From Phycisphaerae bacterium (GTDB lineage Bacteria > Planctomycetota > Phycisphaerae > UBA1845): a stretch of DNA of 64,000 bases. Location of the stretch: assembly GCA_029260235.1 (NCBI GenBank), contig JAJDDP010000009.1, positions 33,711 to 97,710 of the forward strand, in the 5' to 3' direction. Both the position numbers and the translations under genes were made by a program. The notes under the pieces were generated by a model. That model made no database searches, had not been told where the DNA came from, and was given only the letters and a program-made list of their open reading frames with translations. The first letter of the stretch is position 1, and each line of letters begins with the position of its first letter. Of this stretch, positions 1 to 25,046 are shown piece by piece.

Positions 1-841
1 CGTAAAACTGAGCTTTGCGGGGAACTTCCTCAACTTCGTCGCCCCCGGGACCACTGGCGGCGACGTTATCAAGGCCTACTACATCACCCTGCACACGCAC
101 CAAAAAACCGAGGCGGTCACTACGGTATTCCTGGATCGAATTGCCGGCTTAGCCGGCATCCTGGGCCTGGTTTCCATCGTAATTTTTGCGACCACCGGCG
201 ACGCGGAGCTGCGCGGCATTGGCTATATCGTTTTGGCGATGCTCTTAGCCTTGGGTTTGGGCTGCTTGCTGCTGCTATCGGAGGGGCTGCGACGGTGGGT
301 GGCCTCGCGCCGGTTGGCTACGCGGGTCATGGCCTTGGCTGGGCGAGAGCAGGCGTTGCCCGCAGACAGCGCGCCGAGCACCTCGAAACATCGCCTCAAG
401 ATCCTGGCGGGGACCATCATCCGGCAAGCACAGCGGGCAGACCAGGCGACGCAGCGACTCTTGAAGCACCGCAAGATGGTGCTGGGCGCCCTGGCAGCGA
501 CGCTGGTTCTGCAGTTCTTTGCGGTCAGCGCCTTCGTGTTGATCTGTCGGGCGGTCGGTATGAACTTTACCGATTACCCGGCTGGGGACTACTACGCGGT
601 CACCGCAACTGGAAACATCGTGGCAGCCATCCCCATCTCCCCGCAGGGGCTTGGGACGACTGAGGCTGTGTTCAAACATTTTCTTGAGGGCAGCCATGCG
701 AATCTATCACAGGTCTTATGCATGGCTATGGGTATCCGCCTGATGCAATTGAGCTGGGCCTTGCCTGGGATTCTGGTCACGATGACGGGGGCGTACACGC
801 CCAAGATGGACTCCCCTGAATCCCAAGACAGCCAAGCCTAA
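1..841 (+). CDS. Lysylphosphatidylglycerol synthase TM-region / flippase-like (UPF0104) membrane protein, 5' truncated
   Basis: Frame 2 is open from the window edge (VKLSFAGNFLNFVAPGTTGGDVIKAYY...FLDRIAGLAGILGL...) into ORF 233..841; PGTTGGD...DR motifs and multiple TM segments. Confidence 0.85.
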   Translation, partial: VKLSFAGNFLNFVAPGTTGGDVIKAYYITLHTHQKTEAVTTVFLDRIAGLAGILGLVSIVIFATTGDAELRGIGYIVLAMLLALGLGCLLLLSEGLRRWVASRRLATRVMALAGREQALPADSAPSTSKHRLKILAGTIIRQAQRADQATQRLLKHRKMVLGALAATLVLQFFAVSAFVLICRAVGMNFTDYPAGDYYAVTATGNIVAAIPISPQGLGTTEAVFKHFLEGSHANLSQVLCMAMGIRLMQLSWALPGILVTMTGAYTPKMDSPESQDSQA

Positions 842-1031
842 ATCCCTGGCCATCACTGGCCAAGCTTGTGATATGTTGTCGCTGTTCATTTTCTTGGCAA
901 TTGCGGTCTTGAATCCATAGCGATCCGGTTTATCCTTCATTCATCGGCGCAAGCGACGGCAGCTTGGCGAAGAAGTTGTCGTCTCGAATCGACTATCAAG
1001 CCCTTCCACCGACCCGCAAGGAGGCGAACCC

Positions 1032-2024
1032 GTGGCCCGACGGCGCAGAAACGCTCCCAATCCGTTTACCATATTCCTGGTGCTAGCCGTTGTCTGTTCG
1101 GGCGGCTATTGGTTCCTGGGCATCGAAGACGATCCAGCCGCCAAGCCGGCAGAACAAGCGGCTGTGCCGTTGACGTCAGATCGTCCGGAGTCTACTCCGC
1201 TGGATGGCGGTCCCAACGGCGACCTGCCCGAACGCGGAGAAAGTCCGGATTCAAACCCCGCCCAATCGGCTGAGGAGCTGGGTCGGGCTAGGGCGCTGGT
1301 TGCGTCAGGAAGAAAGGCCCTAGGTGCCGGCGAATTGGTTACCGCCCGAGCCCAGCTTAGTGAAGCGCTCCGCTACAACCTGCCGCTCCAAGAAACCGTA
1401 TCCCTACGGGCAGATCTGAGTCGGTTGGGTCGTCAGACCATCTTCTCGAACACCATCCTGAAGGACGACCCCTTCACCGAAGCCTATCTGGTCCAGTCGG
1501 GCGATACGCTAGGCAAGATCGCCAAGAAATTCAGCATCACCGAGAACTTTATCGCCGAGATCAACGGGCTAGCCAACAAGAACATCATCCGCGTGGGACA
1601 GCGTCTCAAGGTCGTTCGGGGGCCTTTCCATGCCGTTGTATCCAGGGCGAACTTCACCATGGACATCTACCTCGACCAGACCTTCGTACAGCGATTCCCT
1701 GTGGGTCTGGGGGCTGAAGGCAGCACGCCGTCCGGCAAATGGAAGATCACCAACAAGCTGGAGAACCCAACCTACTATCCTCCACGCGGCGGGCAGATCG
1801 TCGCAGCCGATGACCCGGAGAACCCGCTCGGCGAACGCTGGATTGGTTTGGAAGGAATATCCGGCGACGCGGTCGGCCAATTACGCTACGGCGTGCATGG
1901 CACGATTGATCCAGACAGCATCGGAAAGAACGTCTCGCTAGGCTGTGTTCGACTGCACAACCAAGACGTTGAGCAGTTGTATACACTGCTTGTAGTAGCC
2001 AAATCAACCGTAACCATTCGCTGA
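1032..2024 (+). CDS. LysM domain + L,D-transpeptidase (YkuD) protein
   Basis: N-terminal TM, LysM (YLVQSGDTLGKIAKKFSITENFIAEINGL), YkuD motif HGTIDPDSIGKNVSLGCVRLHN. Confidence 0.93.
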   Translation: MARRRRNAPNPFTIFLVLAVVCSGGYWFLGIEDDPAAKPAEQAAVPLTSDRPESTPLDGGPNGDLPERGESPDSNPAQSAEELGRARALVASGRKALGAGELVTARAQLSEALRYNLPLQETVSLRADLSRLGRQTIFSNTILKDDPFTEAYLVQSGDTLGKIAKKFSITENFIAEINGLANKNIIRVGQRLKVVRGPFHAVVSRANFTMDIYLDQTFVQRFPVGLGAEGSTPSGKWKITNKLENPTYYPPRGGQIVAADDPENPLGERWIGLEGISGDAVGQLRYGVHGTIDPDSIGKNVSLGCVRLHNQDVEQLYTLLVVAKSTVTIR

Positions 2025-2057
2025 GGTGATGTCGGGCCGCACTTGTCGAATGCAGCC

Positions 2058-2279
2058 CTAGTCTTCGTTGGCGTCTTGGTATTCCTCTAGCCAGGCCATC
2101 TGAATAGCCTCCAGCTTGGCTTCGTTCGAACTGGCTGAATCGTCCTTGAATTCAGGCAAGGCGCACACCCAGGAATGCAAGTCGGTGAATCGGACCGTGA
2201 GCGGATCCAGCTCGGGGTACTTCTCTTGCAGTAGGATGCCGATGTCTTCGCTGTCGATCCACTTCAATTCGTGCGGCAT
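2058..2279 (-). CDS. iscX: Fe-S cluster assembly protein IscX
   Basis: 73 aa, LKWIDSEDIGILLQEKYPELDPLTVRFTDLHSWV...; adjacent to fdx/hscA. Confidence 0.9.
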   Translation of the reverse strand: MPHELKWIDSEDIGILLQEKYPELDPLTVRFTDLHSWVCALPEFKDDSASSNEAKLEAIQMAWLEEYQDANED

Positions 2280-2302
2280 GGGATGATCTCTCTTTACGCG
2301 GA

Positions 2303-2398
2303 CTTAGAGATTGTTTCAATTCCCTCTGTGGCACCGGCTTCTAGCCGGTGGGCGTGCTGTAGGATGCAGATTCTTTGGGTATTGAAACAGTCTCTTAG
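2303..2398. repeat. MITE-like element copy 1 (~96 bp) with ~18-bp terminal inverted repeats
   Basis: CTTAGAGATTGTTTCAAT...ATTGAAACAGTCTCTTAG ends; internal CACCGGCTTCTAGCCGGTG palindrome; near-identical inverted copy at 51518..51611. Confidence 0.8.
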
Positions 2399-2805
2399 TG
2401 CTCCGGCTCTTTGGCGAGGTTGCGATTCCACTCGGGCACCTCGACCACCAGATCACAGCTGCCATCGGGGACCGCTTGGCAAGCGAGACGGCTCGTCGGC
2501 TTGATCGAGGGTGCATTCTCCAACTGATCATCTTCCTCTTCGGAGGCTTCGCTCAGACTATCGAATCCTTCTTTGACCACCACATGGCAGGTCGAGCAAG
2601 CACAGACACCGCCGCAGGCATGGTCGATTCCGATAGCGACCTTGCGAGAAATATCCAGCAGGCTGCCCGGCAATCCCTCGTGATCGTAAGGAAATTCCTT
2701 GGGATCCACGTCAATGGTCACGTCCATCGGCATAAAGGTGACCTTGAACGGCTTGGTCGCCGGCTTAGCTGCCTGCGTCTTCAGGTAAGGATTATCACCA
2801 CCCAT
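2395..2805 (-). CDS. fdx: ISC-type [2Fe-2S] ferredoxin
   Basis: HACGGVCACSTCHVVVKEGFDSL...SRLACQAVPDG; located between hscA and iscX. Confidence 0.92.
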   Translation of the reverse strand: MGGDNPYLKTQAAKPATKPFKVTFMPMDVTIDVDPKEFPYDHEGLPGSLLDISRKVAIGIDHACGGVCACSTCHVVVKEGFDSLSEASEEEDDQLENAPSIKPTSRLACQAVPDGSCDLVVEVPEWNRNLAKEPEH

Positions 2806-14408: not shown

Positions 14409-16214
14409 ATGATTTCGGTTCGCTGTGGCTGTGGAAAACGAATCGAAGTACCCAAGAAGCTAATCGGCAAGATGCTCTCCTGCCGAAGCTGCAAGGGATC
14501 TCTCCGGCTGGTGGCCAGCGATCCATCCGCCGCCGCCAGCCCGCCCGGCAACGCCTTGTTGGTGCTAGATGGGCCTCACCGCGTCGGTGAGCAACTTTTT
14601 CTGGTCGGTGACGAGCCTCTACAACTTGGAAAACTTCCGGGTAGCGAGGTCCTGCTCAAGGGGAACCGTGTATCGCGAAGCCACTGCCGCCTGGTGCCCG
14701 AACAAGGCGGATGGCGCATCGAGGACGAGACAAGCACCAATGGAACCTTTGTCAACGGGCAACGCGTAGCCAACCGCCGGCTGCGGCACGGCGATCGACT
14801 AGCGGTTGGGGATTTTAAGTTTCGATTCGTGAGCACCAGCGGTGAAGCATTACCCGCCAAACACAAGAAGAAACCAAGACCAGAAGCCCCCGCAACCCAA
14901 CCGGCCAAAGAGGAAGAGATCTTTGCGGTAGCTATCCCGGTTGAAGACGATGAGCTTGATCCGGCTGGCTCGTTCGGCATTGCTGACGACGAGTGGGATT
15001 CGTTGGCTAGTGCGGGTGAAATAGTAGAAACCGGATCAAGCACAGCCATCGCTGACGACGAGGCGAGCGGCTCTCACATGACAGCCACCGGCGGCGGGTT
15101 CGTCGAGCGGCATACAGGCCCTGGTCCAGAGTGCCCTTGCTGCGAACAAATGCTGGCAGCCAATGCCAAACTTTGCGTCCAGTGCGGCATCAGTGTGAAG
15201 ACTGGGCGGTCCATCCTTACATCGCACGGCAGCGACTTGGATCAAGTTTACATCAATGCCGAGAACATCATCCGGGTCATCAGCTGGGTTTTCTGGTTTG
15301 GGATCTACCCCTTCGCGTCTGAGGCTTTTGGGACAAAGAAGCCGCACGTCATCCGAGCGGTCGCGGTGTTGACCATCCTCACCAGTGTCTGGTTCTTGGC
15401 TTACGAATGGTCGGCGTCGCCGCGAATGCAAGAAATGAAAAACCTCATGCTCTGGGTCGGAGAAGAAATGCCCGACGCGGATGAAATCGCGGCGTTCTAC
15501 TTCATGACTTCATACGGAGATTCCGACGCTTTCTTCGCTAACTTGGAGGAGCTTGACTGGGATAATCCAGAACTGGATGAGAACCAAGCTATCCTTGCCG
15601 CCCACACCAGCCTCTCCCGCGAGCAACAATATCACGGGCAATACGGTTCGTCCCAGTTGATCACCCACGCATTCCTGCATGGAGACTTGCTGCACTTGGC
15701 TGGCAACCTACTCTTCCTTCTCGTGTTCGGATCTCGGGTTAACGCCATAATCGGGAACCTCTTCACCTTACTGGCCTACCCTATCCTGGCTGTCGGAGCA
15801 GCCGTTGTGTTCATGATCAGCGCATCAACCAGCTCGCCGACACCTATGCTGGGGGCTTCGGGAGCGATCATGGGCTTGGCGGGAATGTATTTTGTCCTGG
15901 CACCAGTGCACCAAGTGCATGTCGCAGCCTGGACGCGGTGGGGCATAATCGCTTGGTTCCATCTGTCCCTCCGGCTGTGGTCGTTGCGTGGGTTCTGGGT
16001 GGTTCTTTTCTACATCGCTTTTGATGTGGCGTTCACCGCGATGGGCATCGAAGAAGGGACAGCCCACTGGGCGCACCTGGGTGGATTCCTGGTAGGAATG
16101 CTGCTGGCGCTGATCTTGTTGTTTAGCCGGCTAGTCAATTGCCGGGGGGCGGACTTGGTAACAGCCATTCTGGGCAAACCTGCCTGGGCACTAGTGGGCA
16201 AGCCAAACCGCTAG
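14409..16214 (+). CDS. Zinc-ribbon/FHA-domain/rhomboid-family intramembrane serine protease fusion
   Basis: RCGCGKRIEVP...CRSCKG; FHA NRVSRSHCRLV...DETSTNGTFVNGQRV; CPCCEQML...LCVQCG; rhomboid HAFLHGDLLHLAGNLLFLLVFG, GASGAIMG, AHWAHLGGFLVG. Confidence 0.92.
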   Translation: MISVRCGCGKRIEVPKKLIGKMLSCRSCKGSLRLVASDPSAAASPPGNALLVLDGPHRVGEQLFLVGDEPLQLGKLPGSEVLLKGNRVSRSHCRLVPEQGGWRIEDETSTNGTFVNGQRVANRRLRHGDRLAVGDFKFRFVSTSGEALPAKHKKKPRPEAPATQPAKEEEIFAVAIPVEDDELDPAGSFGIADDEWDSLASAGEIVETGSSTAIADDEASGSHMTATGGGFVERHTGPGPECPCCEQMLAANAKLCVQCGISVKTGRSILTSHGSDLDQVYINAENIIRVISWVFWFGIYPFASEAFGTKKPHVIRAVAVLTILTSVWFLAYEWSASPRMQEMKNLMLWVGEEMPDADEIAAFYFMTSYGDSDAFFANLEELDWDNPELDENQAILAAHTSLSREQQYHGQYGSSQLITHAFLHGDLLHLAGNLLFLLVFGSRVNAIIGNLFTLLAYPILAVGAAVVFMISASTSSPTPMLGASGAIMGLAGMYFVLAPVHQVHVAAWTRWGIIAWFHLSLRLWSLRGFWVVLFYIAFDVAFTAMGIEEGTAHWAHLGGFLVGMLLALILLFSRLVNCRGADLVTAILGKPAWALVGKPNR

Positions 16215-16233: not shown

Positions 16234-16770
16234 TTACTCCGGCTCAGGATCAACCCCCAGACCATCTGCGATCCGGTTGATGTAGTTGAAGTACGCACAA
16301 ACCTGAGCGGCATCGTGGATTGCCCGATCAGACCATCCTAGATCGCGCAAACTCTCGATGTCGGCTTCAACCATCGAAGCCGGTGCCCGGGTCAGCTTCT
16401 GGGCATACTCAAGCAATCCCATTGTCGCTGCATCCAGGTCTGCCTTCCGAAAGTCTCGCTTGACTGCCTCGACCAAACCTTCGTCCTCGACCTCAGCCCG
16501 GAGGTCATTTGCATGGGCTTCCACTCAGTAGTGACACATATTGGTATTGGATACGGCCACCGCAATCATCTCTCGCTGAGCGCGCGATAGGGGCGATTCT
16601 CCAAACATGAGTTCGCGGTAGGTCCCCAGCCCTGATCGCAAGACCGGCGGATTGATGCTTTGAATCCGGAGGATGTTGAACACCTTGCCCGCTCGCTGGA
16701 GAGCAGACTTATAGATAGTCGCCAAAAGCCCGGTGGCGTCCTCAATACCGACCATCGTAATCCAGGCCAT
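16234..16770 (-). CDS. AhpD/carboxymuconolactone decarboxylase-like peroxidase-related protein, probable selenoprotein (TGA 16525..16527 read as Sec)
   Basis: Same-frame ORFs 16525..16851 and 16234..16524 split only by TGA: ...EMIAVAVSNTNMCHY[TGA]VEAHAND..., TGA at the second Cys of the family CxxC motif; start MAWITMV preceded by GGAGAAGAAGA. Confidence 0.85.
16488..16507 (-). promoter_or_regulatory. Bacterial SECIS-like hairpin
   Basis: RNA UGACCUC-CGGGCU-GAGGUCG: 6-bp perfect stem plus U.G pair, 6-nt loop with G at loop position 2, loop starts 24 nt after the UGA. Confidence 0.65.
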
Positions 16771-16853
16771 TCTTCTTCTCCGTGGGTGACCCTGCTTCAA
16801 TCGTTCTTGGATGCACAGTATACTCTCAACGCAGATAACAGGCAGGTGCAAGC

Positions 16854-17615
16854 ATGATCACATTTTCGTTGCAATCTGGGTCGAACGGAAACTCCGTCTA
16901 CGTCGAAGCAGGAGGCCAACGCCTGCTGTTCGATGCGGGGATCAGCGGGGCGTGTGCCAAGAATCGAATGGCTGACCACGGCAGAGACATCTGCAATGTG
17001 GATGCCCTGATCATCTCGCATCACCATGCAGACCATGTTCGATGTGCGGGCATCTTCCAGCGAAAATTTGGCCTGCCCATCTACATGACCCGCACCACCC
17101 ACAAGCATGCCTACCCGCCCCTGGGCGACCTAAGCGACGTTCGCTATTTTCGCTCGGGCTCTTCGCTTTCATTCGGGCCTGTGACCGTCCACACGCTGCG
17201 TACACCGCACGATGCCGCCGATGCGGTAGCCTTCGTCGTCGAGTACGAACAGAAGCGTTTGGGGATCCTGACTGATCTGGGGCATCCGTTTGTGGGCCTA
17301 GCCAATCTGCTCGACGACCTCGACGCTGCCTACCTGGAGAGCAACTACGATCCGGGCATGCTCGAGACAGGCCCATACCCTCCCCACCTCCAAGCAAGAA
17401 TCAGAGGCGTGGGAGGCCACCTCTCGAACGAAGAATCGGCTGAGCTGGTCTGTGGCTGTCGATCGGGACGGCTTAAGTGGGTAGCCCTTGCACATCTTAG
17501 CGAGTCAAACAATGACCCAGAACTCGCCCTAGAGGCTCACCGCCAACAAATGGGGGAGAGCTATCCGTACCATGTAGCTCCGCGTGACCAGGTTTCAAGC
17601 CTCATGCTCGTTTGA
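16854..17615 (+). CDS. MBL-fold metallo-hydrolase (YycJ-like)
   Basis: FSLQSGSNGNSVYVEAGGQRLLFDAG...LIISHHHADHVRCAG (HxHxDH). Confidence 0.92.
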   Translation: MITFSLQSGSNGNSVYVEAGGQRLLFDAGISGACAKNRMADHGRDICNVDALIISHHHADHVRCAGIFQRKFGLPIYMTRTTHKHAYPPLGDLSDVRYFRSGSSLSFGPVTVHTLRTPHDAADAVAFVVEYEQKRLGILTDLGHPFVGLANLLDDLDAAYLESNYDPGMLETGPYPPHLQARIRGVGGHLSNEESAELVCGCRSGRLKWVALAHLSESNNDPELALEAHRQQMGESYPYHVAPRDQVSSLMLV

Positions 17616-20910: not shown

Positions 20911-23930
<3,020 letters not shown>

Positions 23931-23945
23931 GCGGGTCGCCTCTTC

Positions 23946-25046
23946 CTAGGACAGATTGACCGGCATCACCACATACAGGTAATCATCACCGCATTTGATC
24001 ACGCCGGGGCGGTTGGCATCTTTTAGCTCAAAATTGACTTCGTCATCGTGGATCACCTTCAGCACGTCGGTCAGGAAGTTGGGGTTGAACCCAATCTCCA
24101 GGGCTTCGCCCTTGTAAGCCACGGCAAGCTTGACGCTGGCTTCGCCCTCCTGAGGTGCCCGACTCGACAAAGTTAGCTCTGCATCAGCGAAGGCGAAACG
24201 AACCCCGCGAGACTCTTCATTGGTCAAGAGGGCCGCACGGCGAATACCGCTGAGCGTCTCGCCCACCTTCAACTGGGCTGTCTTGTTCGTTTCCTTGGGG
24301 ATGACGTCATGGTAGTTCGGGAAGTGCCCCTCGACCAAGGCAACGCTGACCGTAGCTCGGTTTGAACGCAGCACAATCTGACTCTCGGTCAGCTTGACGC
24401 CTATTTTCTCGTCTTGCTCGGTAAACAACCGTTGAAACAATACCATTGCCTTGCTGGGAACGATCACCTCTGACGGACCGCCATCCTTGCCTCCAGAGAT
24501 CTTGCCGACCGCCTTGGCCAATCGCCGTCCATCGGTGGCCACCATGACCAGCTGCTTATCTTTCCGTTCCCAAAGAACACCGTTGATGGCATAGCGGGTG
24601 TTCTCCCGGGCGGCGGCAAAGATGGTTCGCTCAGCCAGATGTCGCAGCACGTTTGCTTTGATCTCCCAGTCGGGATCACCCGACATTGAAGCTCCGGCGG
24701 GGAATTCCTTGGCATCGCGGATGTAGATCTGGAAGTGGCTTCCTGCGCCCCGCACGTGGCAGTGATTGGCGTCGGTTTCGATGTCCAGCAGCTCATCGTT
24801 CGATTCGCGGACAATGGCTGACAACTTCTCAGCCGAAACCAAGACCACGCCTTTCTTGTTCACTTCCACCTGAGAGACGATGAACCGGATGGAAATCTCA
24901 AGATCGGTGCCTTCCAGCTCGAGGTGATCCGCGGCTGCTCGGAGGAGGACGCACTTGAGAATGTCCTTGGGCGTGCGGGTAGCAGCTACGCTACCGACTA
25001 CGCCTAACGCTTCTGCTAGTTCCTGACGGTTGACTCGTACTTTCAT
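23946..25046 (-). CDS. dnaN: DNA polymerase III beta clamp
   Basis: MKVRVNRQELAEALGVVGSVAATRTPKDILKCVLL...C-terminal YLYVVMPVNL. Confidence 0.96.
   Translation of the reverse strand: MKVRVNRQELAEALGVVGSVAATRTPKDILKCVLLRAAADHLELEGTDLEISIRFIVSQVEVNKKGVVLVSAEKLSAIVRESNDELLDIETDANHCHVRGAGSHFQIYIRDAKEFPAGASMSGDPDWEIKANVLRHLAERTIFAAARENTRYAINGVLWERKDKQLVMVATDGRRLAKAVGKISGGKDGGPSEVIVPSKAMVLFQRLFTEQDEKIGVKLTESQIVLRSNRATVSVALVEGHFPNYHDVIPKETNKTAQLKVGETLSGIRRAALLTNEESRGVRFAFADAELTLSSRAPQEGEASVKLAVAYKGEALEIGFNPNFLTDVLKVIHDDEVNFELKDANRPGVIKCGDDYLYVVMPVNLS

Follow-up and report, generated by a model that had tools for sequence, protein, structure and literature searches.

A probable AhpD-like selenoprotein gene in a Phycisphaerae genome, with a conserved SECIS-like hairpin inside its coding sequence

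On the minus strand of the window, the 64,000-nucleotide stretch of Phycisphaerae DNA that we analysed, two open reading frames in the same frame are parted by a TGA at 16525..16527, which raises the question of whether they are the halves of a broken gene or one gene in which TGA encodes selenocysteine (Sec). An earlier note, made from the letters alone, had proposed the latter: an AhpD/CMD-like selenoprotein with TGA on the second Cys of its CxxC motif, followed by a SECIS-like hairpin, in a gene that annotation pipelines would split. The two halves do form one frame, running from an ATG at 16770..16768 to a TAA at 16236..16234 with the TGA as its sole interruption, and comprising 178 codons including Sec82, plus the TAA (Table 1). 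ORF calling under table 11 divides the gene just as the note expected, into 16234..16524 and 16525..16851. With the TGA at codon 82 read as Sec, the 178-residue readthrough protein contains the stretch AVSNTNMCHY-U-VEAHANDLRAEV. Its MAWI-type start is conserved among relatives, and the purine-rich GGAGAAGAAGA immediately 5' of the ATG could be the ribosome-binding site of the gene.

Table 1. Coordinates of the candidate selenoprotein gene, its elements and other features in the window and the genome.
Feature	Location	Strand	Basis or remark
Predicted AhpD/CMD-fold selenoprotein gene	window 16234..16770	-	TIGR01926, PF02627 and PDB 3c1l matches; MAWI-type start
In-frame TGA, codon 82, second position of CxxC (C79-H80-Y81-U82)	window 16525..16527	-	TGA in homologs, codon alignment
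Bacterial SECIS-like hairpin inside the coding sequence	window 16489..16506	-	fold and homolog comparison
Proton-relay motif E67-x11-C79-x-Y81-U82-x3-H86, codons 67 to 86	window 16513..16572	-	motif script; PA0269 spacing
FHA domain fused to rhomboid protease domain	window 14409..16214	+	adjacent to and convergent with the selenoprotein gene
selD with TGA	L018 (G000:C87) 1189..2481	-	profile match, SCAGUAGK
Second paralog, CHYU, 46% identical, one in-frame TGA	L103 (G000:C5:40500-43400) 1156..2421	-	
Deiodinase-like selenoprotein candidate, GSYTUPPF	L103 (G000:C5:40500-43400) 269..1033	+	PF00837, 97 bits
Third TIGR01926 protein, CRFU, in-frame TGA	L104 (G000:C138:15500-18300) 1073..1660	+	112 bits

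The readthrough protein belongs to TIGR01926 (peroxidase-related enzyme): it scores 150.4 bits, with residues 3-178 aligned to profile positions 2-178, and thus exceeds the curated cut-off of 81.8 bits over its full length. It also matches Pfam CMD (PF02627, 40 bits) and the AhpD core domain TIGR00778, and solved structures align across the TGA, the best being Mlr4105 (PDB 3c1l, E=6.7e-33). A scripted motif search found the residues and spacing of the AhpD-type proton relay, namely E67, C79, Y81, U82 and H86, and the TGA does fall on the second Cys of the AhpD/CMD motif (CHYU). The corresponding relays are Glu36-Cys48-Tyr50-Cys51-His55 in PA0269 and Glu118-Cys130-His132-Cys133-His137 in M. tuberculosis AhpD (PMC3141380). 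The window protein shares its fold family and the E-x11-CxxC-x3-H relay with the Cys-containing structures (Mlr4105, 3c1l; PA0269, 2o4d; M. tuberculosis AhpD), whereas these have Cys at the position of its predicted Sec. The profile NF041238, AhpD_rel_CFYUT (seleno)protein, likewise combines an AhpD core with a CxxU-type motif, but it spans 357 positions against 178 residues here, and we rejected membership because the partial match of 65.9 bits falls below its cut-off of 175 bits.

Searches for homologs covered 100 related genomes and 297 genomes of the phylum. Among the matches listed, every full-length homolog of at least about 45% identity carries exactly one in-frame TGA, and the TGA-bearing homologs come from many genera; further homologs are present in Planctomycetota records. 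At the homologous loci that we read directly, the TGA stands at the identical codon in 37 of 37. Cys-coded relatives, with TGC or TGT at the same position, are found only at greater distance (44% identity or less). The UGA is thus in frame at a position conserved as Cys or Sec in homologs, and the TGT or TGC in close homologs that the earlier note had named as fatal to its proposal did not turn up, since these all have TGA. Sec homologs that are 51-57% identical to the window protein and have the same hairpin also occur in Acidimicrobiia records (L051-L054), which suggests either transfer between phyla or an error in assembly binning. The record L069 proved to be a false motif hit and was left out of the count of Sec homologs. 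Between one homolog from a genome of the window's phylum (L080) and another in a record titled Singulisphaera (L055), the 60 nucleotides from the TGA onward are identical.

Decoding of the TGA as Sec would call for selA, selB, selD and a tRNA-Sec, which the note had proposed looking for, and all of them are encoded in the window's own genome (5.28 Mb in 231 contigs). The tRNA-Sec scores 64.9 bits against a cut-off of 47, and ARAGORN also calls a tRNA-SeC with anticodon TCA. On contig C36, selA (462 bits) adjoins selB (364 bits). The selD gene (371 bits) itself has an in-frame TGA as its active-site codon, within the motif SCAGUAGK of a Sec-containing selenophosphate synthetase, so its own selenophosphate synthetase can be made only if TGA is decoded as Sec. 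Within the order, presence of the sel genes says little about presence of the selenoprotein gene: selA occurs in 90 of the 100 relatives, and of the relatives that lack both selA and the selenoprotein gene, most belong to a single family (f5) in which the sel-positive members are also without it.

The hairpin starts 18 nucleotides past the TGA and pairs GACCUC (16506..16501) with GAGGUC (16494..16489) around the loop CGGGCU (16500..16495). It is part of the minimum free energy structure, it lies just downstream of the UGA and its small apical loop contains a G. Taken alone, the hairpin in the window sequence is weak evidence for a SECIS: the 51-nucleotide stretch folded by itself gives a z of -0.83, and 41 of 200 shuffles are as stable. 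Since the stability of this single hairpin is not significant against shuffles, we rested the case on comparison. An Rfam scan of the window gave no match near the selenoprotein gene. All six stem pairs are formed in 46 of 63 distinct TGA homologs, and at least five in 58 of 63. The stem of 6 bp, the spacing of 18 nucleotides and the loop had been described exactly in the earlier note, whereas the extra U.G pair that it added to the stem is not conserved (32/63).

As the stem also encodes Asp-Leu and Glu-Val, some of the pairing could be due to conservation of the protein sequence, and it is the wobble positions that decide. At the hairpin, Leu is encoded by CTC in 58 of 60 cases, compared with 38% elsewhere in the same genes (Fisher p 4e-16). 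Set against the same residue elsewhere in the same genes, codon choice is similarly restricted for Arg (CGG or CGT in 58/61; p 4e-21), Glu (GAG in 54/55; p 2e-8) and Val (GTC or GTT in 44/46; p 4e-8), although none of these Fisher p values is a strict probability, because the homologs are related. The pair between the Asp wobble position and the first position of Val is C-G in 49 of the 63 homologs, T-A in 7 and T-G in 3, with a mismatch in the other 4; among the T-A pairs are those of GAT...ATC, in which Val is changed to Ile together with a synonymous change in Asp. The only GAA codon for Glu sits in a homolog (L070) in which CTC has become TTC, and the pair is kept. The loops are mostly CGGUCG, CGGGCU or CGUGCC, all three with G at position 2, and CGGUCG can form a seventh C-G pair, leaving a GGUC loop. 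Conservation and covariation across the 63 homologs thus argue for the SECIS-like reading of the hairpin. Four distant homologs (L075, L077, L082 and L085) keep the TGA and do not have the conserved hairpin, so their SECIS must differ.

These comparisons bear on what else the TGA could be. It might be a nonsense mutation of a TGC or TGT Cys codon, either real, in a pseudogene, or artefactual: one base change converts either codon to TGA, and an assembly in 231 contigs is fragmented. The same codon is TGA, however, in dozens of independently assembled genomes from more than one phylum, which effectively rules out both a sequencing error and a pseudogene of recent origin, and both halves of the gene are conserved and the hairpin is under synonymous constraint; we regard this explanation as exceedingly improbable. 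Hardly any weight, either, can be given to the idea that TGA has been reassigned throughout the genome, to Trp for instance. An in-frame TGA by itself does not identify the inserted residue, but this one replaces a catalytic Cys and not Trp positions, the genome has all four sel genes, and long neighbouring genes are intact under table 11.

A slightly less remote, still very unlikely alternative accepts Sec decoding and takes it to be partial, with a stop after codon 81 yielding a functional short product or acting as a selenium-dependent regulatory switch. UGA readthrough at Sec codons does compete with termination. A product ending at codon 81, however, would be without the second redox residue and the His86 of the relay, and the C-terminal half is well conserved among homologs.

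The earlier note's selenoprotein interpretation thus withstands comparison on the strength of the sel genes, the TGA in homologs and the conserved, covarying hairpin. We consider it very probable, judging from sequence, that the locus encodes one AhpD-like selenoprotein in a single, functional gene, and Sec decoding of the TGA at codon 82 is a strongly supported prediction. SelB carrying Sec-tRNA(Sec) would bind the hairpin, and selenocysteine would be inserted at codon 82 instead of termination. The protein would adopt the all-helical AhpD/CMD fold, in which the Cys79/Sec82 pair, set within the Glu67-Cys79-Tyr81-Sec82-His86 relay, could form a thiol/selenol redox centre. From homology we infer a peroxidase or redox role, and likewise the physiological substrate and reductant: the centre may reduce hydroperoxides directly, or may regenerate a partner peroxiredoxin via a selenenylsulfide intermediate. 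A more speculative reading, which we think possible and on balance unlikely, is that the Sec form constitutes a separate clade, acts as a direct, AhpC-independent selenol hydroperoxidase and was acquired across phyla as a ready-made unit of gene and SECIS; the clade would be widespread in one phylum and common to Acidimicrobiia, with a near-frozen hairpin, GAYCTCCGK...GAGRTC.

Selenoproteins of this kind are already known, as the earlier note had stated, and the present gene is another example. CxxU AhpD-like selenoproteins were first reported in 2005 from the Sargasso Sea, with 27 sequences in COG2128 (PMC1088965), and the Global Ocean Sampling data proved rich in them, with 299 sequences (PMC2398784). 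A 2026 review names an "AhpD-like protein, TIGR01926, CxxU", with MCB9421940.1 as its example (PMC13188914); as TIGR01926 CxxU proteins are thus already catalogued, the present gene is not new in kind. It agrees with the known CxxU AhpD-like selenoprotein in its TIGR01926 family, its CxxU motif, the predicted replacement of the second Cys by Sec and a SECIS-like hairpin after the UGA, and we found no essential difference, MCB9421940.1 being compared by description only. What is added here is quantitative support for the SECIS, in the form of a covariation test, and evidence of how widely the Sec form occurs, together with the correction of a gene of which ordinary annotation would make two. 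The frozen, covarying hairpin of 18 nucleotides also offers a natural data set for the rules of bacterial SECIS elements within coding sequence.

The same genome encodes two further TIGR01926-type proteins with an in-frame TGA in a CxxU motif (Table 1). With three CxxU paralogs in one genome, the lineage appears to use selenium in several AhpD-like redox proteins, besides a deiodinase-like candidate and the Sec-containing SelD. In L103, the deiodinase-like candidate adjoins the CHYU paralog, which directly follows a nitroreductase-like coding sequence in the same readthrough frame. The window contains other TGA readthrough candidates that have redox-like motifs, but by eye these look like noise from noncoding frames.

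The selenoprotein gene itself seems to stand alone. A metallo-beta-lactamase-fold gene (16854..17615) is divergent from it and the FHA-rhomboid gene lies on its other side; at the homologous loci, the former neighbour was found in none and the latter in one (L022), so the neighbours are not kept and there is no conserved operon. Elsewhere in the window, at 20911..25046 on the minus strand, dnaN-, DUF721- and gyrB-like genes stand in a row, as recognised by eye, and the window may therefore be near a replication origin.
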